DNA of 64,000 nt. Origin: Rhodospirillaceae bacterium SYSU D60007 (lineage in GTDB: Bacteria; Pseudomonadota; Alphaproteobacteria; Reyranellales; Reyranellaceae). The notes beneath the pieces were generated by a model that was not told the DNA's origin, made no database searches, and worked only from the letters and a program-made list of their open reading frames with translations. The position numbers and the translations under genes were made by a program. Within the stretch, counting starts at the first letter, position 1, and every line of letters begins with the position of its first letter. Location: the NCBI GenBank assembly GCA_003574685.1, contig QOCQ01000005.1, forward strand, positions 1 through 64,000, written 5' to 3'. Of the stretch, positions 6,490 to 61,125 are shown one piece after another.

Positions 6490-6613
6490 CCTTCCCCCGG
6501 AGGGGGAAGGTGGCGCGCAGCGCCGGAAGGGGGATGCCTCAACCAGCACGACGCCGCAGGTGTTGGACCATCCCCCTTCCGCCCTTCGGGCACCTTCCCC
6601 CTCCGGGGGAAGG
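6490..6613. repeat. GC-rich double-hairpin intergenic repeat, family A copy 1
   Basis: ccttcccccggagggggaag opens the element, followed by a ggcgcgcagcgcc stem and gaagggggatg. After a short unique middle the whole outer half returns inverted (catcccccttccg ... ccctccgggggaagg). Five more copies occur in this window at 24862, 30958, 51036, 57972 and 61002. It lies between two convergent genes. Confidence 0.9.
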
Positions 6614-20087: not shown

Positions 20088-20107
20088 CCTTCCCCGAAGG
20101 GGGAAGG
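20088..20107 (-). terminator. Hairpin downstream of gltX
   Basis: ccttccccgaagggggaagg folds as a near-perfect stem beginning 10 bases past the gltX stop. The same sequence forms the end of the family A repeats, so it may be a lone half-element acting as a terminator. No clear U-tract follows. Confidence 0.45.
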
Positions 20108-21636: not shown

Positions 21637-23295
21637 TTAACCCCTGAACGCGTTGGTGATGGGGTAGCGGCGGTCGCGCGAAACCGCGCGGCCAGTGATC
21701 TTGACGCCTGGCGGCGCCTGCCGGCGCTTGTACTCGGCCATCTCCAGCATGCGCCAGACACGCTGCACCGTAGCCGCGTCATGGCCCTCGGCCGCCAGTT
21801 CCTCGACGCCAAGGTCGCGCTCGATCAGGCCTTCCAGGATCTTGTCCAGCAGGTCGTACGGCGGCAGCGTGTCCTGGTCCTTCTGGTCCGGCTTCAGCTC
21901 GGCGGAGGGCGGCTTGGTGATGATGCGTTCGGGGATCACCTCTCCGCCGGGACCCATGGCCCCAAGCGGCTGATGGGCGTTGCGCCACCGTGCCAGCGCG
22001 AAGACGGTGGTCTTGTAGACATCCTTCAGCGCGTTATAGCCGCCGCACATGTCGCCGTAGAGCGTCGAGTAGCCCACGGCCATCTCCGACTTGTTGCCGG
22101 TGGTCACCACCATGTGGCCGAACTTGTTGGAGATCGCCATCAGTGTGACACCGCGGGCGCGCGCCTGGATGTTCTCCTCGGTCGTGTCGGCGGCGCGGTT
22201 GCCGAACACGGGCCGCAGCATCTCGGCAAACGCCTTCATCGCCGGCTCGATCGAGACGATGTCGTAGCGCACGCCCAGCGCCCCGGCGCATTGCGCGGCA
22301 TCCTCCAGGCTGTCGCGGCTGGTATAGGGCGAGGGCATCATTACGGTACGCACCCGGTCGGCACCGAGCGCATCCACCGCCACCGCTGCCGTCAGCGCCG
22401 AGTCGATACCGCCGGACAGGCCGATGATCACACCCGAAAAGCGGTTCTTGTTCACATAGTCGCGCAGACCCAGCACCATCGCCTGATAGATCGATTCCAG
22501 GCGTGGCAGCACCGGCACCACCGTGCCCGGCATGCAATCCCACTTGCCGCCGGCGCCGCGGCGCCATTGCGTGGCGACGACGGCTTCCCTGAAGCTGGGC
22601 AGCGAAACGCGCAGCTTGCGGTCGGCGCCGATCACGAAGGAGCCGCCGTCGAAGATCAGCTCGTCCTGGCCGCCGACCTGGTTGACGTAGCAGAACGGCA
22701 GGCCGCTCTCGACCACGCGCGCCACGCCCAGCTGCATGCGCCGCTCGGTCTTGTCCACCTCGTAGGGCGAACCGTTGGGCACCAGGATGAGTTCGCCACC
22801 GGTTTCGGCGATGCACTCCACCACATCAGGCGTCCAGACATCCTCGCAGATGGGAACGCCGATGCGCACGTCGCGGAAGACCAGCGGGCCGGGCATGGGT
22901 CCCGGCGCGAACACGCGCTTTTCGTCGAACACGCCGTAATTCGGCAGGTCGACCTTGAAGCGCTTGCCGACGATCTCGCCGCGGTCGAGCAGCAGGATGG
23001 CGTTGTGCAGCTTGTCGGCCTCGCGCCATGGCGTGGTCACGAACAGGGCAGGTCCGCCATCGGCGGTGTCGGCGCGCAATTCCTCGACGGCTTCGTGCAG
23101 GCGCCGCTGGAAGGCCGGCTTCAGCACCAGGTCTTCCGGCGGATAGCCCGACAGCATCAGCTCCGAGAACACGACCACGTCGGATCCCAGCTTCGCCGCC
23201 TCGGCCCGCGCGGCACGTACCCTGGCGACGTTGCCGGCCACGTCGCCGACGGTCGGATTAAGCTGGGCAATGGCGATATTCAGGGCGTCGGTCAT
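21637..23295 (-). CDS. nadE: Glutamine-dependent NAD+ synthase
   Basis: A 552-residue two-domain enzyme that makes NAD+ from deamido-NAD+, ATP and glutamine in the cytosol. The N-terminal nitrilase-like glutaminase has the Glu45 ([14 protein letters not shown]), Lys114 ([16 protein letters not shown]) and Cys150 (GVPICEDVW) triad. The synthetase domain has the PP-loop SGGIDS at 294-299, with [16 protein letters not shown] later. Length is normal for the long NadE. The gene downstream of the probable selenoprotein, 115 bp away and in the same direction. Confidence 0.96.
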
Positions 23296-23410
23296 CCCGT
23301 CACTCTACCGCGTCGGCACGCGCCAACAATGACGCACCGGCTATACACCGGCGCTGTCGGGCTGACCATCCGGGACGCCGCATCCCGCTTATGCTTATTT
23401 GGAGTATATC

Positions 23411-24484
23411 CTACCGCCCGACTCCCGGCAGGTCGGGTGGCGGGTAGTATGGCTTGTCGCCCAGCGCCTGTACGCGGGCCCAGAACTCCGGTCCGCTGGC
23501 CTTGCCGACTTCCTGCAGGTCGGCGGCCTGGCGCCAGATGTTCCAGGAGTCCGGATGCAGACGGGAAGCCTCGGCGAGATGATGGTCCCCCTCTTCCGCC
23601 TTGCCATGGTGGCGAAGCCAGGTGCCGAGCCGGAAATGGGCATGTGCGCGGGCAATGTCATCGGTGATGCGCGGCTGGCTGCGGCGCGCCGCGTCGGGCG
23701 GCAGCGCATGCCTGCCGGTCAACACCCACTCCTTCACCGCGTCGAGATAGGCCTTGCGCGCCGCCAGCCGTGCCGCCTGGTCCTCCGGCGACATGGTGCG
23801 CGTCGTCAGATCCATGCGGCGGAAATGGTCGGTGGAGCCGGCCGTCTCCGCGGGCCGCACGATGCGGCCGGCTTCGTCGATCCACACCGATTGCGGCACA
23901 TTGACCATGCCGTACAGATCGGCCACGCGGTGGTCAGTATCGACCAGGCACCAGTAGGCGGGTTTCGCCTGCTCGATCCACTGGCGGGCCTGGTCGGCGC
24001 CGCGGCTCTCCTCGGCCACGGCGACGATCATGAAATTGCGATCCTTCAGCTCGTCATACAGTAACTGCCACACGGGCAAGTCGAACCGGCAGCCTCACCA
24101 ACTGGCCCATGTGGCGAGGAACACCTTGCGGCCGCGCAACGCCGAGAGCGTATGCGGCACGCCGTCGAGGTCGGGCAAGGTAAAGTCGGGCGCGTCCAGA
24201 CCGGCCAGCGCCGCGTTGCGCGCATCGGCACCGATGCCCAGCACCCAGGTTTCGCGCGCTTCGTCGTGCAGCACGGGATGGCCCAGCCGCTGCCAGAAGG
24301 CCACAACATCGACCTTGCCATCGCGCGCCTCGCTGGCCGGCAGCGGCACGCAGGCTTCGTCGCGGCACATGCCCTCGGGCTTCAGCGTCCAGCCGGTGGC
24401 GCGCTCGGCTTCCGCCGCAGAGAGCCACAACCCGTCCGCCGCGGCGACGCGATGCTCGCCGGTTTCGCTCAAGATGATGGCCAT
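23411..24484 (-). CDS. Redoxin-domain protein, probable UGA-encoded selenoprotein
   Basis: Read through one in-frame TGA (24097-24095) this is a single 357-residue protein. Residues 1-95 form an N-terminal domain with Cys40 and Cys45. APDFTLPDLDGVPHTLSALRG begins a TlpA/ResA-like thioredoxin fold, whose strand ends VFLATWASW (129), then Sec130-Gly-Cys132-Arg and DLPVWQLLYDEL. The redox motif is thus U-x-C where relatives have Cys. The second half (NVPQSVWIDEAG with the cis-Pro loop; a helical tail to 357) has no start of its own other than a TTG. The frame is unbroken apart from the TGA. It lies just upstream of nadE. A nonsense mutation or sequencing error is the alternative. Confidence 0.72.
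24065..24097 (-). promoter_or_regulatory. UGA codon and SECIS-like hairpin
   Basis: The TGA occupies 24097-24095. Two bases later CTGCC (24092-24088) pairs with GGCAG (24069-24065) around 18 bases; GG just before and TT just after can extend the stem by wobble pairs, and an inner GGT/GCC or CGG/CCG stem shortens the loop, which contains a G. A hairpin directly after the UGA is what bacterial SelB needs. Folding was done by eye only. Confidence 0.45.
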
Positions 24485-24505
24485 CGGCCGCCTCCCTGCG
24501 CCGCG

Positions 24506-24841
24506 CTATGTCAGCGGCACGAAATCGTATTCGCCGATCCCCTGCAGGACAAGGAAGGTGGCGGAGCGGTCGCCATCGTTCACGACAAGGTGCGGGCGGC
24601 CCGGTCGCGCCGTGAAAGTTTCACCCGGACCGAGGCGAACATCCTCCTTGGGATCCTGCAGGAAGACGCGGATGCGCCCGTCGAGCACGTAGAAGGTGTC
24701 GGCGACGTTCGTGTGGTAGTGCCACGGCACCTTCTGGGTCGGGCTGATCTGCAGCTCGCTGATACGAAAGCCCGGCCGCTCCGCATGACGCGCCCGCCGC
24801 TCGACCTCGTACAGGTGGCTGGCATCCTTCACGGCATCCAT
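24506..24841 (-). CDS. Cupin-domain protein
   Basis: A 111-residue single cupin barrel. The metal motif is in VPWHYHTNVADTFYVLDGRI (two His, then a later Glu-less second motif) and FTARPGRPHLVVNDGD provides the third His. Small cupins bind ligands or metal and often serve as sensors or isomerases; no substrate can be named. It is 21 bp upstream of the probable selenoprotein in the same direction, so the two may share a transcript. Confidence 0.88.
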   Translation of the reverse strand: MDAVKDASHLYEVERRARHAERPGFRISELQISPTQKVPWHYHTNVADTFYVLDGRIRVFLQDPKEDVRLGPGETFTARPGRPHLVVNDGDRSATFLVLQGIGEYDFVPLT

Positions 24842-24861
24842 GTACGCCTCCTTTCATGAGT

Positions 24862-24999
24862 CTTCCCCCGGAGGGGGAAGGTGGCGCGCAGCGCCGGAAG
24901 GGGGATGCCGCGGCAAGCACGGCGTTTAGATGCGAGACGCCGCGCGCGTTGAGGCATCCCCCTTCCGCCCTTCGGGCACCTTCCCCCTCCGGGGGAAGG
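24862..24999. repeat. Family A double-hairpin repeat, copy 2
   Basis: Starts cttcccccggagggggaagg and ends ccctccgggggaagg, with the ggcgcgcagcgcc stem in the left half and a 40-bp middle not shared with other copies. It lies between the cupin and GYD genes. Confidence 0.9.
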
Positions 25000-25038
25000 A
25001 ATGCGGTGCATTGGCCTTCGCGGGGAGAAGGCAAAATA

Positions 25039-25323
25039 CTAACCGGCGGCTTTCTGGACCGCCTTCTCGAAGCTCTGGGAGTCGAACGCGGGCAGGCTCT
25101 GGATGCGGCCCAGGCCTTGCGCGGCGTACCAGACGGAAAAGGCAAGCATCGCCTCGGCGTCGGGCGCATCGACCACGTCGACGAAATCGTACGGTCCCTG
25201 CGTGTAGTGGATCGACTCCAGCTTGATGCCGAGCTTGTCCAGCCTGGCCCGCGCCTTGGCGGTGCGCTCCGCCTGCTTGCCGGCCCAATCAACGCTGAGC
25301 GTGCCGAGAAGAACATACTTCAT
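25039..25323 (-). CDS. GYD-domain protein
   Basis: A 94-residue protein of the GYD family: KYVLLGTLSVDWAG at the start, then YTQGPYDFVDVVDAPDAEAM (the G-x-Y-D core) and SVWYAAQGLGRIQSLPAF. The fold is a ferredoxin-like dimer related to the EthD/ABM group, with unknown function. It stands between a hairpin repeat and nicotinate phosphoribosyltransferase, leftward. Confidence 0.92.
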   Translation of the reverse strand: MKYVLLGTLSVDWAGKQAERTAKARARLDKLGIKLESIHYTQGPYDFVDVVDAPDAEAMLAFSVWYAAQGLGRIQSLPAFDSQSFEKAVQKAAG

Positions 25324-25412
25324 GACGGCCCTCCTTCGCGTAGCTCACTTCGGGTGACGCGGGGGTCCTTATACGCCCGCCCTGCCTCGCCTGCCAGCCG
25401 GGGTCCGCGGGC

Positions 25413-26555
25413 TTACAAGGCCGGCACCCTGGCGGTGCGGTTACGATGCAGGAACTCGCGGCCGACCTTCACGCGCGGCACGCCGTCATATTCGACGATG
25501 TCGGCGGTGGCGTAGGTCTCCGTCCAGTTGGAGGGCAGGAACGAGCCCGAGCCCACGACGTCGATGGGCGCGCCGGCTTCGGCCATCACCCGGCACTTGG
25601 CCGGCCCGAAACCGGACGAGGCGACAATGCGCACCTTGTCGAAGCCCTCGGCATCCAGCCGCTCGCGCAGATGGAACAGGGCCGCCGCCGACACACCGGT
25701 GCCCACGAGATGGCGCAGTTCGTCGTCGGTGCGATAGCCGCGGATCGCCTCCGGTGCGTGGCGCTCCATCACGGCATACGATGCCTGCGGATCGAGCCCT
25801 TCGACGTACCGGCCGCCCGTCGTGTCGAGCCGCACCGAGAGCTGGCCAGCCGAAGCCAGTTCCGGGAACCGCCGCGCCACGGCCAGCGAGTCGCTGACCT
25901 CGCGCGCGAAATAGTCGACCAGCACCGTCATCGGCTCGCCGGGAAACGTCTCGTGATACATTTCCGCCGCGCGCAGGGTCGATCCGGCGTAGCCGATCAG
26001 TGCATGCGGCATCGTGCCCATGCCCTGGTCGCGACCAAAGAAATGCGCCGTGCTGTGGGTGGCATTGCCGATGAAGCCCACGGCGTTCAGCTTGCGCCGG
26101 GCGCGGGCCGAACCGACCGAGGCGGCGTAGGCCATCATCTCCGCCATCTCCGCGCCGGCGCAGTGGCGCGCATCCATGGCGAGAAACGCCGTCTTCGGCA
26201 TCTCCGCGCACATGGTGTAGGCGTTGTAGGCCGCGACGCAGGCGGGCCCCAGCTTCTGCAGGAAAATCGTTTCGAGGTCGACGAGGTGATAAAAGGAGCC
26301 GGTGATGTACATGATCGGCTCGCCCGCGCCGACCCATTTGCCCTCCGGATAGCGCAGATCGACCTCGACCTTCGTGCCGCGCGCCTCGGTCAGCGCATGC
26401 AGCCAGTCGAGCGCCAGGCGCGGTGCGTTCACCACCGGCCGACGCATGAAGATCGCGTAGGTGACCGTGCAGTCGCCGAACTTGCCGATCACGCCCTTCG
26501 TGCGGTTGAAGTAGTGATCGGTGTAGCGCGAAACGTCCGGATTTGCCGGATGCAT
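25413..26555 (-). CDS. Nicotinate phosphoribosyltransferase (NAPRTase-like)
   Basis: A 380-residue type II PRTase-fold enzyme of the NAD salvage pathway, expected to join nicotinate and PRPP. Seen: TDHYFNRTKGVIGKFGDCTV at the start, the FIGNATHSTAHFFGRDQGMGTMPHA active-site segment with its conserved His, the SDSLAVARRFPEL-type D-S-x-x-R loop and IVASSGFGPAKCRVM. It shares NAD metabolism with nadE in this block. It follows the DAHP synthase by 44 bp; a six-base-pair hairpin (aggcgcgatggcgcct, 26585-26600) lies between. Confidence 0.87.
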   Translation of the reverse strand: MHPANPDVSRYTDHYFNRTKGVIGKFGDCTVTYAIFMRRPVVNAPRLALDWLHALTEARGTKVEVDLRYPEGKWVGAGEPIMYITGSFYHLVDLETIFLQKLGPACVAAYNAYTMCAEMPKTAFLAMDARHCAGAEMAEMMAYAASVGSARARRKLNAVGFIGNATHSTAHFFGRDQGMGTMPHALIGYAGSTLRAAEMYHETFPGEPMTVLVDYFAREVSDSLAVARRFPELASAGQLSVRLDTTGGRYVEGLDPQASYAVMERHAPEAIRGYRTDDELRHLVGTGVSAAALFHLRERLDAEGFDKVRIVASSGFGPAKCRVMAEAGAPIDVVGSGSFLPSNWTETYATADIVEYDGVPRVKVGREFLHRNRTARVPAL

Positions 26556-26599
26556 CGTGCATTCCTCCCCAGGATGAAAGGATCAGGCGCGATGGCGCC

Positions 26600-28042
26600 T
26601 CACTTTGCCGGCGACCCGTTGCGGTCGCGCGCCCCACGTTCGGTCTTAAGCCCTTCGGCCAGCAGGAAGGCCAGCTCCAGCACCTGGCTGGCGTTGAGCC
26701 GCGGATCGCACTGCGTCTCGTACCGCGCCGTCAGCCCGTCCACGGTAATGTCCACGGCGCCACCGACGCACTCGGTCACCTCCTGCCCCGTCATCTCGAA
26801 ATGCACGCCGCCGGGATGCGTGCCCTCGGCGCGATGCGCGGCGAAGAAGGCGCGCACCTCGCGCAGGATGGCATCGAAATGCCGGGTCTTGAGCCCGTTG
26901 GCCGCCTTGACCGTGTTGCCGTGCATGGGATCGCACGACCACACCACCTTGCGGCCCTCGCGCCGGATGGCCCGCAGCAGCGGCGGCAGCTTGTCCGCCA
27001 CCGCATCGGCGCCCATGCGGGTGATGACCGTGATGCGGCCGGCCTCGTTGCGCGGATTGAGCACGTCGAGCAGGCGCAGCACGTCGTCGGGCGAGATGTC
27101 GGGCCCGGCCTTGAAACCCAGCGGGTTCTTGACGCCGCGCAGGAACTCCACATGCGCGCCATCGGCCTGGCGCGTGCGTTCACCGATCCACAGCATATGC
27201 GCGCTGCAATCGTACCAGTCGCCGCTGGTCGAATCGACGCGGGTCAGCGCCTGCTCGTAGGGCAGCAGCAGGGCCTCGTGGCTGGTGAAGAAATCGGTTT
27301 CGGCGATCTGGGGCGTCGTGGCCGAGGTCAGCCCGCACGCCGCCATGAAAGTCAGGGTTTCGTCCAGCCGTCCCGCGAGGTCTTCGTACCGCGTACCCGC
27401 CGGCGAGCTGGAGACGAAATCGAGGTTCCAGCGATGCACCTCATGCAGGTCGGCATAGCCGCCCTGGGCGAAGGCGCGCAGCAGGTTCAGCGTCGCGGCC
27501 GACTGGTTGTAGGCCTGCACCATACGCTCGGGATCGGGCCGGCGCGCCTCGGGCGTGAACTCGAAGCCGTTGACGTTGTCGCCGCGATAGCTCGGCAGCT
27601 CGACGCCGTCGATGACCTCCGTATCGGAGGAGCGCGGCTTGGCGAACTGGCCGGCGATACGGCCGACCTTCACCACCGGCATGCCGGCGCCGAAAGTGAG
27701 CACGACCGCCATCTGCAGCAGCACCCGGAACATGTCGCGGATGTTGTTGGCGGTGAAGTCGGCGAAGCTCTCGGCGCAATCGCCGCCCTGCAACAGGAAG
27801 GCATGGCCCTCGGCGACGCGGCCCAGCGCCGCTTTCAGCCGCCGTGCCTCACCCGCGAACACCAGGGGCGGGTAGCGTCGCAGCCGGGCTTCCGCCGCCT
27901 CCAGGGCCGCGCGGTCCTCGTAGACCGGCATCTGACGGGCCGGGAAGTTCCGCCAGGAATCGGGCGACCACGCAAACGCAGCCACGCCACCCGGCCGTCC
28001 GTCGGTCGGCTTGCGCTGCGCCGTTGCCTGGTTCGCACTCAT
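26600..28042 (-). CDS. Class II 3-deoxy-7-phosphoheptulonate (DAHP) synthase
   Basis: A 480-residue plant/Mycobacterium-type (class II) DAHP synthase, first enzyme of the shikimate pathway, condensing phosphoenolpyruvate and erythrose 4-phosphate. Metal ligands align as Cys89 ([11 protein letters not shown]), His374 (CDPMHGNT), Glu416 (HFEMTGQEV) and Asp446 ([10 protein letters not shown]). The [10 protein letters not shown] segment and the long N-terminal extension are normal for class II. Regulation by a chorismate mutase partner is known in Actinobacteria but no such gene is next to it. Upstream is a terminator-like hairpin at 28059-28080. Confidence 0.94.
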
Positions 28043-28943: not shown

Positions 28944-30239
28944 TCAGCCCTTCAGTGCGGCGCGCAGCGCCGGCGCAAGGTCGTCGATCAGGTCGTCCGC
29001 ATCCTCGAGGCCGACCGACAGGCGCACCATGCCTTCCCCGACGCCGGTCGCGGCGAGTTGCTCGGCGGTGAGCTGCGCGTGCGTCGTCGAGGCGGGGTGG
29101 ATCACCAGCGACTTGGCATCGCCGACATTGGCCAGATGCGAGAACAGCCGCAGCCGCTCGATAAAGCGCTTGCCCGCTTCCCGTCCGCCCTTGAGGTCGA
29201 AAGCAAAGATGGCGCCGCTGCCGTGCGGTAGCAGCGTCTTCGCCAGCGCATGATCGGGGTGGCTCGGCAAGTCGGGATAGAGCACGCGCTCGACCGCCGG
29301 GTTCTCGGCCAGGAACTGCGCCAGCTTGCGCGCGTTGGCCACATGCTGGCGCATGCGCAGCGGAAGGGTTTCCAGGCCTTGCAGCAGATAGAAGGCGTTC
29401 TGCGGCGACAGGGCAGGACCGAAATCGCGCAGCCCTTCGGCGCGGGCCCGCATGATGAAGGCCTGCGGCCCGAACTCGGCCGCGAAATCGATGCCGTGAT
29501 AGCCGGCATAGGGCTCGGTGAGCGTCGGGAACTTGCCGGACGCGCGCCAGTCGAAGCGGCCGGCATCGACCAGCACGCCGGCAATCGCCAGACCATGGCC
29601 GCCGATGAACTTGGTGGCCGAGTGCATGACGATATCGGCCCCGTGCTCCAGCGGATTGCACAGCGCCGGCGAGGCGAAGGTGTTGTCGATCATCAGCGGC
29701 ACACCGGCGTCATGCGCAACCTTCGCCACCGCCGGCAGGTCGAGCACCTCGCCGCCGGGATTGCCGATGGTTTCGCCGAACAGCAGGCGCGTCTCGGGAC
29801 GGATGGCCTTGCGCATGCCCTCGAGATCGCGCGGATCGACGAACGTCGTGGTGATGCCGAAGCGCGGCAGGGTCAGGCCCATCAGGTTGCGGCTGCCGCC
29901 ATAAAGCGAGGCCGAGGCCACGATGTGGCCGCCCTGCCCCATTAGCGTGGCGATGGCGATGTGCAGCGCCGCCTGGCCGCTGGCCACGGCGAGCGCGCCC
30001 GTCCCCTTCTCCAGCGCCGCGACGCGTTCCTCCAGCACGGCAACCGTGGGGTTGGAGATGCGCGAGTAGATGTGCCCGCCGACCTCGAGGTTGAACAGGC
30101 TGGCGGCGTGCTCGACGTCGCGGAACACGAAGCTGGTGGTCTGGTAGATCGGCACGGCCCGCGCGCCGGTGACCGGATCGGGCTGCTGTCCGGCATGCAG
30201 CGCCAGCGTGTCGAATTTCAGGAATTTCGCGTCAGGCAT
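28944..30239 (-). CDS. metY: O-acetylhomoserine aminocarboxypropyltransferase / sulfhydrylase (Cys/Met PLP enzyme)
   Basis: A 431-residue cystathionine-gamma-synthase-family PLP enzyme that makes homocysteine from O-acetylhomoserine and sulfide. The PLP lysine is Lys210 ([12 protein letters not shown]), [10 protein letters not shown] and [13 protein letters not shown] match the OAH-sulfhydrylase subgroup, and [25 protein letters not shown] is the classic start. The ATG at 30239 gives this start; a longer frame to 30332 has no similarity. I looked in the 133-bp leader for a SAM-II riboswitch and saw no match. The alpha/beta hydrolase follows at 4 bp. Confidence 0.93.
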
Positions 30240-30957: not shown

Positions 30958-31082
30958 CCTTCCCCCGAAGGGGGAAGGTGGCGCGCCAGCGCCGGAAGGG
31001 GGATGCCTCAACAAGCGCGACGCCGCAGATGTTGCACCATCCCCCTTCCGCCCTTCGGGCACCTTCCCCCTCCGGGGGAAGG
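30958..31082. repeat. Family A double-hairpin repeat, copy 3
   Basis: Opens ccttcccccgaagggggaag and closes with the inverted arm at 31082. The left-half stem reads ggcgcgccagcgcc, one base longer than other copies. It fills the space between two convergent genes. Confidence 0.9.
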
Positions 31083-31876: not shown

Positions 31877-32662
31877 CTACTGCGCCGTCCAGCCGCCGTC
31901 GCTCACCAGTTGCGCGCCCTGCATATTGACAGCGGCCGGCGTGCAGAGGAACACAGCCAGCGCTGCGAGCTGTTCCGGCGTCGTGAACTGGAGCTGCGGC
32001 TGCTTCTCGCCCAAGAGCGCCTTGCGCGCCGTCTCGACGCTGATCTTTTCCGCCGCGGCGCGCGCCTCGATCTGCTTCTGCACCAGCGGCGTCAGCACCC
32101 AGCCGGGGCAGATGGCGTTGCAGGTGACGCCGGTATCGGCACACTCCAGTGCTACCGTCTTGGTCAGGCCGATCACGCCGTGCTTGGCCGCGACGTAGGC
32201 CGCCTTCTGTGCCGAGGCCACCAGCCCGTGGGTGGACGCGATATTGATGATGCGGCCCCAGCCGGCCTTCTTCATCAGCGGCAGCGCCGCTCGGATGGTG
32301 TGGAAGCTGCTCGACAGGTTGATGGCGATGATCGCATCCCAGCGCTCGACGGGGAATTCCTCCACCGCCGCCACGTGCTGGATGCCGGCATTGTTCACCA
32401 GCACATCCACCGAACCCAGCGTGCGGGCGGTCGTGGCCACCAGATCGGCGATCTCGGCCGGCTTGCTCATGTCGGCGGGATGATATGCCGTCTTGCCCGG
32501 CCCCATCTCCGCGATCTCCTTGCGGATCTGCTCGATGGCCGTCGGCTCGCCGAAGCCGTTGAGCATGACATGCGCGCCCTCGGCGGCCAGCGCCCGGGCA
32601 ATGCCCAGGCCGATACCGCTGGTGGAGCCGGTAACGATGGCGGTCTTGTTGGCAAGGATCAT
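31877..32662 (-). CDS. bdhA: 3-hydroxybutyrate dehydrogenase (SDR)
   Basis: A 261-residue SDR of the D-3-hydroxybutyrate dehydrogenase type, interconverting 3-hydroxybutyrate and acetoacetate in PHB or ketone-body use. TGSTSGIGLGIA (11-22) binds NAD, NNAGIQHVAAVEEF is diagnostic, and the Ser/Tyr/Lys triad is in NIASTHGLVASAQKAAYVAAKHG. LGEKQPQLQFTTPEQ near the C-terminus is also typical of the group. DUF1192 lies 22 bp upstream in the same direction. Confidence 0.92.
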   Translation of the reverse strand: MILANKTAIVTGSTSGIGLGIARALAAEGAHVMLNGFGEPTAIEQIRKEIAEMGPGKTAYHPADMSKPAEIADLVATTARTLGSVDVLVNNAGIQHVAAVEEFPVERWDAIIAINLSSSFHTIRAALPLMKKAGWGRIINIASTHGLVASAQKAAYVAAKHGVIGLTKTVALECADTGVTCNAICPGWVLTPLVQKQIEARAAAEKISVETARKALLGEKQPQLQFTTPEQLAALAVFLCTPAAVNMQGAQLVSDGGWTAQ

Positions 32663-32684
32663 CAGCTCATCTCCGCGTCAGGTG

Positions 32685-32873
32685 TCATCGCTTGAAGAAC
32701 GACTGTGCTGCCGCGGCATGCGCCTGCTTGGCCTTGATCTGCTCCTCGGCGCGCGCGATCTCGGCTTTCAGACCGGCGATGTAGTCGCGCAGTTCTTCCA
32801 CCGACATCGGCTCGAGGTTCTTTGGCTGAGGCTTTTTCGTGCGCGGTTCCAGGTCGTCATCATCGCGCGCCAT
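32685..32873 (-). CDS. DUF1192-family small protein
   Basis: A 62-residue DUF1192 protein: a charged N-terminus (MARDDDDLEPRTKK), then LEPMSVEELRDYIAGLKAEIARAEEQIKAK, a helical coiled-coil region, and a terminal SFFKR. The family is nearly restricted to alphaproteobacteria and has no known role. In many of these genomes it lies beside a quinone oxidoreductase, as here (divergent, 98 bp). It precedes bdhA by 22 bp. Confidence 0.93.
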   Translation of the reverse strand: MARDDDDLEPRTKKPQPKNLEPMSVEELRDYIAGLKAEIARAEEQIKAKQAHAAAAQSFFKR

Positions 32874-32971
32874 GGTCGTCCTCCCTGGAAGACGGCAGCC
32901 CTCAATGGACGGTCTGCCTGCCGCCGGGCTATAGCAGCCGTCCCTGACCGCCGAAACAGCCGGAGAGTCGC

Positions 32972-51035: not shown

Positions 51036-51173
51036 CCTTCCCCCGGAGGGGGAAGGTGCCCGAAGGGCGGAAGGGGGATGGTGCAACGCCTACGGCGTCT
51101 CGCTATTAACGCCGTGCCCATTGAGGCATCCCCCTTCCGGCGCTGCGCGCCACCTTCCCCCTCCGGGGGAAGG
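51036..51173. repeat. Family A double-hairpin repeat, copy 4
   Basis: Starts ccttcccccggagggggaag and closes at 51173. In this copy the left half is the gtgcccgaagggcgg type and the right half the ggcgctgcgcgcc type, i.e. inverted relative to copies 1-3. It follows the tandem array without a gap. Confidence 0.9.
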
Positions 51174-57971: not shown

Positions 57972-58095
57972 CCTTCCCCCGGAGGGGGAAGGTGGCGCGC
58001 AGCGCCGGAAGGGGGATGCCTCAACCAGCACGACGCCGCAGGTGTTGCACCATCCCCCTTCCGCCCTTCGGGCACCTTCCCCCTCCGGGGGAAGG
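57972..58095. repeat. Family A double-hairpin repeat, copy 5
   Basis: Opens ccttcccccggagggggaag and ends ccctccgggggaagg. It lies inside the segment (57906-58141) that separates gcgccactggagt from agtggcgcgct; at 54036 these halves are joined. The gene-free 57874-58237 otherwise holds the duplicated leader of the Rieske gene. Confidence 0.9.
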
Positions 58096-61001: not shown

Positions 61002-61125
61002 CCTTCCCCCGCAGGGGGAAGGTGCCCGAAGGGCGGAAGGGGGATGGTGCAACACCTGCGATATCGCGCTTGCTGAGGCATCCCCCTTCCGGCGCTGCGC
61101 GCCACCTTCCCCCTCCGGGGGAAGG
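61002..61125. repeat. Family A double-hairpin repeat, copy 6
   Basis: Opens ccttcccccgcagggggaag (one base different from other copies) and ends at 61125. Orientation as in copy 4. It separates the M20 and HyuB genes, which converge. Confidence 0.9.

Follow-up and report, generated by a model that had tools for sequence, protein, structure and literature searches.

A redoxin gene with one in-frame UGA in Rhodospirillaceae bacterium SYSU D60007 very probably encodes a selenoprotein and may bear on the upkeep of selenocysteine decoding in its order

The window considered here, a stretch of 64,000 nucleotides from Rhodospirillaceae bacterium SYSU D60007 (contig QOCQ01000005.1, positions 1 to 64,000), raises the question of whether a TGA triplet within a redoxin gene terminates translation or is decoded as selenocysteine. 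When read with translation table 11, the minus strand offers two frames, 24095-24484 (129 aa, starting with ATG) and 23411-24079 (222 aa, the first available start being a TTG). Both share one frame and merge into a single frame of 357 residues, 23411-24484, if the TGA at 24095-24097 is read as sense. An earlier note, written from the sequence alone, had joined the two leftward frames through this TGA, had granted the downstream half a TTG start at best and had proposed selenocysteine at the site of a catalytic cysteine. The junction and the TTG were found as described there, and we consider it very probable that the gene encodes a selenoprotein, a soluble redoxin of three domains into which SelB and a hairpin direct selenocysteine at residue 130. 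The features of the gene itself are as follows.

24491-24497, minus strand: Shine-Dalgarno-like AGGGAGG, 6 nt upstream of the ATG, as seen in the sequence
23411-24484, minus strand: coding sequence through one UGA for a 357-aa WAxxUGC redoxin, very probably a selenoprotein (NF041054, 316.2 bits against a cut-off of 300)
24095-24097, minus strand: TGA, very probable selenocysteine codon, residue 130 (TGA in 79 and TGC in one of 80 homologous loci, the best 80 of 90)
24089-24091, minus strand: codon of Cys132, the presumed resolving cysteine of the U-G-C motif, invariant in 25 members

About 57 nt past the redoxin stop codon lies a terminator-like hairpin of 8 pairs (window 23334-23354, minus strand). 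Such hairpins occurred at three sites in the 1.75 kb scanned, against 0.8 expected, and a promoter scan of 23250-25000 returned no site.

The family to which the protein belongs had been left unplaced in the earlier note. It is NCBIfam NF041054, 'ResA-like WAxxUGC motif-containing protein' (WAxxUGC_long), and residues 21-350 align with positions 8-352 of the 354 positions of the profile, the motif being present as WASWUGC with the TGA as U. The match, above the cut-off when Cys is written for U, means that the family is already curated and carries the U in its name. A six-frame search gave 309.7 bits, 6.5 bits less, such that some borderline members would pass the cut-off if they were Sec-translated. 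The nearest named relative, as judged from the redoxin protein, is Reyranella.

Within the order, for which we analyzed 76 genomes including that of the window (redoxin matches at E <= 1e-50), the matches to NF041054 fall into two classes. One class scores 486-501 bits and is represented by one gene each in G015, G046 and G049. The window-type class scores about 270-317 bits when complete and stays mostly under the cut-off, which was exceeded in seven of the 76 genomes, in G015, G046 and G049 through the 486-501-bit gene. The window's gene is thus set apart from the best scorers of its family. In a quick tree, in which long branches meet, the three high scorers together with L113 and L114 sit behind a branch with a length of 1.82 changes per site. 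The 25 members of our alignment match NF041054 with a best E of 1.6e-96, so that none of them belongs to the 486-501-bit class. Two UGA-bearing family matches each were present in G002, G006, G015, G045, G046, G059, G165, G197 and G300; some of these pairs may be fragments of one gene, and those in G015 and G046 belong to both score classes.

Related proteins have appeared in print under other names. The redoxin fits a selenoprotein that the GOS survey of 2008 entered as 'Prx-like (UGC-containing), pfam00578' and found to be more abundant in non-marine samples (PMC2398784). The likeness is one of description, as both have UGC in an AhpC-TSA (pfam00578) protein, whereas the multi-domain layout of the redoxin is absent from the survey's description in the part accessible to us (PMC2398784). 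A UGC-containing Prx-like selenoprotein is also listed elsewhere (PMC9312934), and a 'UGC-containing TlpA disulfide reductase family protein' is listed in a 2026 review (PMC13188914), whose main text does not contain the name NF041054. We found no paper that uses the motif name WAxxUGC, and none of the publications retrieved for selenoproteins with Reyranella treats a UGC redoxin, as judged by title and abstract.

The distribution of the UGA among relatives bears directly on the possibility that the gene is a pseudogene or the product of a sequencing error, that is, a plain Cys redoxin whose TGC has turned into TGA. The two codons are one base apart and one homologue indeed has TGC. A scan of species genomes yielded 90 stretches encoding a relative, the best 80 of which were kept as loci, mainly from Alphaproteobacteria but also from records assigned to Burkholderiales, SAR324, Chloroflexota and Actinomycetota. 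Of these best 80 loci, 79 have TGA at the codon aligned to residue 130 and one has TGC. This codon was aligned exactly for the 80 and for ten fetched genes, while elsewhere the statement is that a TGA lies within the match. In a sample of 289 genomes of the class, in which the redoxin was sought with a 25-row profile at E <= 1e-40, all 21 matching places have a TGA inside (the one in G053 also lists a TAG). The part following the UGA aligns in 25 of 25 chosen members (L087 and L088 end early), in agreement with the earlier note, which had seen the frame stay open there. Conservation of the TGA across several phyla, together with the conserved flanks, practically refutes the pseudogene and the sequencing error. 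The relatives carry either TGA or a cysteine codon at this site and their downstream part is conserved; decay of that part behind some other codon, which the earlier note had named as an outcome that would speak against it, was not seen. Reading the UGA as selenocysteine is supported by these counts.

The single Cys homologue among the best 80 of 90 loci, L076, is a truncated metagenome-assembled gene that carries cysteine at the site of residue 130, where the first cysteine of C-x-x-C redoxins aligns as well; the earlier placement of the TGA at a catalytic-cysteine site was therefore borne out. L076 reads CCGGCCTGG instead of CCCGTGTGG, and the CGUGU loop discussed below is absent from it. 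In the quick tree it sits on a fairly long branch within the 67-row window-type clade and, being nested there, looks like a change from Sec to Cys. On sequence grounds it is a candidate for such a change outside FdhA and SelD. Another relative, L060, stems from a metagenome bin titled Klebsiella pneumoniae, while its family gene groups with alphaproteobacterial rows on a long branch; the title of this record may be wrong.

The AlphaFold2 model of the 357-aa protein, computed with 25 sequences (pLDDT 93.8, pTM 0.91), comprises a beta-rich N-terminal domain, a thioredoxin fold and a C-terminal helical part.

24209-24484, minus strand: N-terminal beta-rich domain, about residues 1-92, with Cys40 and Cys45 invariant in the 25-member alignment
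24350-24367, minus strand: C-x4-C motif, residues 40-45, invariant columns
23858-24202, minus strand: thioredoxin-fold (AhpC-TSA/ResA-like) domain, residues 95-209 (PF00578; VIA Z of about 16 with DsbE and ResA)
23465-23788, minus strand: C-terminal helical part, perhaps TPR-like, residues 233-340 (AlphaFold2 helices)

U130 and C132 are invariant in the 25 members, as is the C40/C45 pair of the N-terminal domain. The cis-Pro loop that the earlier note had assigned to the downstream half is present as NVPQ, with P197 nearly invariant among the 25. Residues of about 92-257 match structures of ResA and DsbE best, the top Foldseek match being ResA 2f9s (E 4e-11). With VIA, the thioredoxin part gave a Z of 16.5 with 3gl3 (rmsd 2.1 over 140 residues) and of 16.4 with ResA 1st9 (2.2 over 136 residues). 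The N-terminal domain, when modelled alone (pLDDT 89.7), found no Foldseek match in the PDB at E <= 0.001 and reached a VIA Z of 4.4 at best, and no known fold was assigned to it; a suspected likeness to the copper-amine-oxidase N domain was supported by no search. For the C-terminal part, TPR_14 matches stayed under the cut-off and designed TPR proteins gave weak repeat-like matches. The first residues, MAIILSETGEHRV, contain no membrane anchor or export signal that we could see by eye.

This architecture has consequences for the idea that the UGA is a real stop and that separate polypeptides of 129 and 222 residues are made, the second from the TTG. It is true that both halves are open and that the TTG follows the UGA by only 15 nt. 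According to the model, however, the split would cut through the thioredoxin fold and part U130 from C132. Moreover, no Shine-Dalgarno-like sequence was seen by eye before the TTG, and this triplet forms the beginning of the 5' arm of the apical hairpin described below. We regard two separate polypeptides as extremely improbable and retain the single selenoprotein.

What reaction the selenoprotein would catalyze is a separate matter. With ResA, TlpA and DsbE it has in common the thioredoxin-fold domain, the WASW before the nucleophile and the cis-Pro loop, but in place of the C-x-x-C of ResA and TlpA it has U-G-C, one residue fewer than, e.g., in WASWCGPC. It also adds the N- and C-terminal parts to what these proteins possess and lacks, by eye, an export signal. 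The same selenoprotein might instead act mainly as a peroxidase of the peroxiredoxin type. The Pfam matches of the redoxin to PF00578 (AhpC-TSA, 61.7 bits) and PF08534 (Redoxin, 48.3 bits) point in this direction and PrxQ and AhpE structures align too, albeit with a VIA Z of about 13 as compared to about 16 for DsbE and ResA. Peroxiredoxins are characterized by the motif P-x-x-x-(T/S)-x-x-C/U. In the redoxin the residue three positions before U is Ala127 instead of Thr or Ser, and this alanine is nearly invariant in the 25 members. We thus deem a mainly peroxidatic role unlikely, and the redoxin is most likely a soluble thiol-disulfide oxidoreductase. From motif and fold we infer the following chemistry for a cytoplasmic enzyme. 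The central thioredoxin-fold domain would bear the U-G-C redox centre, in which the selenolate of Sec130 would attack the substrate, a disulfide or a peroxide, and Cys132 would resolve the intermediate via a selenenylsulfide. The N-terminal domain with its Cys40/Cys45 pair may relay electrons; docking of partners may be a task of the C-terminal helical part.

Incorporation of selenocysteine at an internal UGA calls attention to the sequence that follows it, in which two hairpins compete.

24065-24079, minus strand: probable SECIS apical hairpin UUGCC-[CGUGU]-GGCAG (nt 19-33, the U of the UGA being nt 1)
24088-24092, minus strand: CTGCC, left arm of the hairpin noted first, competing for the right arm 24065-24069

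The earlier note had pointed at the second of these, a CTGCC/GGCAG hairpin starting two bases past the TGA. The inverted repeat exists (24088-24092 with 24065-24069). Another left arm, TTGCC at 24075-24079, can pair with that right arm and is conserved better than CTGCC; the likelier SECIS is the hairpin at 24065-24079, because it is under stronger synonymous constraint; the range suggested for inspection, 24040-24100, covers both. In the apical hairpin the five pairs 19-23/29-33 all form in 63 of 63 distinct rows, and a sixth pair that we tried (nt 18-34) forms in 40% of the rows. The codons for Leu136, Pro137, Val138 and Gln140 make up this structure including its CGUGU loop. TTG is used at Leu136 by 59 of 74 rows, as compared with 8.5% of the Leu codons elsewhere in these genes; for CCC at Pro137 the count is 62 of 62 (34.6% elsewhere), for GTG at Val138 73 of 74 (49.4% elsewhere) and for CAG at Gln140 71 of 71 (80.6% elsewhere). 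When 312 codon columns are taken eight at a time, codons 135-142 show the strongest excess of synonymous conservation, while as single columns Ser74 and Ser160 elsewhere are as constrained as the best of the hairpin. One row of the L061 clade has C21-G31 for G21-C31, which is synonymous on the Leu side; the compensatory change thus amounts to one distinct row. The CTGCC hairpin is paired in 97.1% of cells, with more variation at its wobble positions (among 63 rows, nt 6 differs in 7 and nt 9 in 15). The codons CCC GTG TGG are kept in seven of eight more distant family genes, L115 and L116 being without the outermost pair, and in the distant family gene L112 the same stem closes a loop AGGUU.

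Folding energies for the 48 nt past the UGA were no better than those of codon-shuffled controls (z of +1.15 for the window, mean of +0.18 for 81 rows, L076 included), and five single hairpins, with z between -0.2 and -1.2 against their controls, were uninformative for a SECIS. The case for the element hence rests on comparison. The bacterial SECIS has been described with a small apical loop containing G (PMC1088965), and a stem of 5 bp closed by CGUGU downstream of the UGA corresponds to this description. Judging from the aligned sequences, the SECIS is probably the hairpin at 24065-24079. In two same-genus relatives, the sequence past the fdoG Sec codon is able to form a stem with a loop AGUUU when the structure is read by eye; RNAfold drew it otherwise. 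Both this stem and the apical hairpin resemble the SECIS of E. coli fdhF, with its bulged U17 and G23-U24 in the loop.

Whether the organism can decode UGA as selenocysteine follows from its gene content. The genome to which the window belongs (5.34 Mb, 58 contigs, 99.8% complete) encodes all four components for which the earlier note had advised looking, on one contig (C7) and within 9 kb: tRNA-Sec at 24090-24181 (75.6 bits; tRNA-SeC with anticodon tca according to ARAGORN), selB at 24262-26145 (449.7 bits), selA at 26178-27518 (566.8 bits) and selD at 32000-32917 (286.9 bits, no internal stop). Two further matches to the tRNA-Sec model above the cut-off are tRNA-Ser according to ARAGORN. SelB, carrying Sec-tRNA-Sec and guided by the hairpin at nt 19-33, would insert selenocysteine at residue 130.

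Redoxin and SelB co-occur in the class sample. The redoxin family is present in 18 and SelB (E <= 1e-60) in 41 of the 289 genomes, and all 18 fall within the 41, an overlap with a hypergeometric chance of 1.1e-17 when uncorrected for phylogeny and shared ancestry. In the order, a redoxin match with an internal TGA was found in 71 of 76 genomes, the other five (G001, G033, G048, G056 and G057) being all 60-85% complete, and SelB above the cut-off in 72, with none found in G001, G017, G033 and G043. G017 (89% complete) and G043 (96% complete) contain the redoxin and count against a strict linkage with SelB, unless selB was lost in assembly. That redoxin presence tracks SelB in the class sample speaks against the two-polypeptide reading, too. 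It is also relevant to the possibility that read-through of the UGA places a standard amino acid (Trp or Cys) at this site. Low-level read-through does occur in bacteria and would fit such a reading, but the presence and co-distribution of the Sec machinery stand against it. So does the constrained hairpin with a G in a small apical loop (PMC1088965). We consider insertion of Trp or Cys very improbable and selenocysteine by far the most probable reading of the codon.

The genes around the redoxin in the window are rarely found near its relatives. In the best 80 of 90 loci, with flanks of up to 3 kb, NadE and a cupin occurred once each, nicotinate phosphoribosyltransferase twice and GYD-domain and GltX genes in none. 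Of these best 80 loci, 37 have an ORF cluster with a CoxE-like VWA gene upstream and 32 have one with a 2Fe-2S small-subunit gene downstream, both clusters being named after Pfam matches in L020 only; in L020 (4210-6844) the 2Fe-2S small-subunit gene is followed by that for a molybdopterin-binding subunit. As this neighbourhood may reflect shared ancestry, we did not use it for assigning a function. The window also contains a dispersed palindromic repeat, CTTCCCCCnnnGGGGGAAGG, in six pairs of copies spaced about 103-118 bp (6490-6613, 24861-24999, 30958-31082, 51036-51173, 57972-58095 and 61002-61125) and in a lone imperfect copy at 20088. With up to three mismatches there are 25 strand matches as opposed to 0.03 expected by chance, and by its sequence the repeat is a REP- or MITE-like element. 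An Rfam search of 22000-26000 (E <= 5) returned six matches over this repeat, all to miRNA families and far below their gathering scores.

The surroundings of the Sec genes raise the further point of what keeps the decoding apparatus in place. According to a survey from 2006, every selenoproteome contained FdhA or SelD, one or both of which largely maintain the trait, and fdhA was the only selenoprotein gene of Sec-using Alphaproteobacteria (PMC1794560). In Helicobacter mustelae, a Sec-containing SelD is the sole selenoprotein, and the trait outlived formate dehydrogenase (PMC4607533). Alternatives such as SelD may maintain it according to the 2026 review as well (PMC13188914). In the window's genome, selC-selB-selA are followed by fdhE- and fdoI-like genes, as read from the translations and still open frames, and by a remnant of fdoH (contig C7, about 29346-29765; L099 9766-9347). 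The remnant covers residues 152-291 of the 299-residue FdoH of a same-genus relative and is 92% identical to it, and the FdoG of that relative found no match in the 16-kb sel stretch. Further selenoproteins were sought across the genome with two formate dehydrogenase models and SelD. TIGR01553 gave 15 matches, none above 125 bits and all free of internal stops. TIGR01591 matched at 13 places, likewise free of internal stops, and one of these scored above the cut-off (937 bits); a formate dehydrogenase without UGA may therefore well be present.

Across the order, formate dehydrogenase was sought with TIGR01553 only (E <= 1e-100, the best nine candidates at most being scored per genome). It was found in 51 of 76 genomes, mostly with a UGA. 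The 25 genomes without a match are that of the window and 24 of the 75 others, and 21 of them have SelB and a UGA redoxin. Completeness reaches 90% or more in 17 of these 21, among them G050 and G053, each a single contig. Of the remaining four, G001 yielded neither gene, G043 the redoxin but not SelB, and G056 and G057 SelB but not the redoxin. The persistence of both genes in 21 of 25 genomes in which no UGA-type formate dehydrogenase was found suggests that the redoxin may maintain Sec decoding, and makes it a further candidate for keeping the trait. It is conceivable, though we put this forward tentatively and at somewhat less than even chances, that in this order the UGC redoxin, rather than formate dehydrogenase or a Sec-containing SelD, maintains Sec decoding, that it is perhaps the only selenoprotein of the window's genome, in which fdoG was not found, fdoH is truncated and SelD lacks an in-frame UGA, and that it represents a clade distinct from the best scorers of NF041054 and largely under the cut-off of that family.

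The family as such is known already; what may be new is the persistence of UGA redoxin and SelB where a UGA-type formate dehydrogenase was not found. The standard code splits such genes in two, and the NF041054 cut-off misses most window-type members in the order. If it is true that the redoxin keeps selA-selB-selC after loss of the Sec-containing formate dehydrogenase, this would contradict the generalization drawn in the 2006 survey (PMC1794560), and maintenance of decoding by the redoxin would be testable by removal of the gene in cultured relatives.
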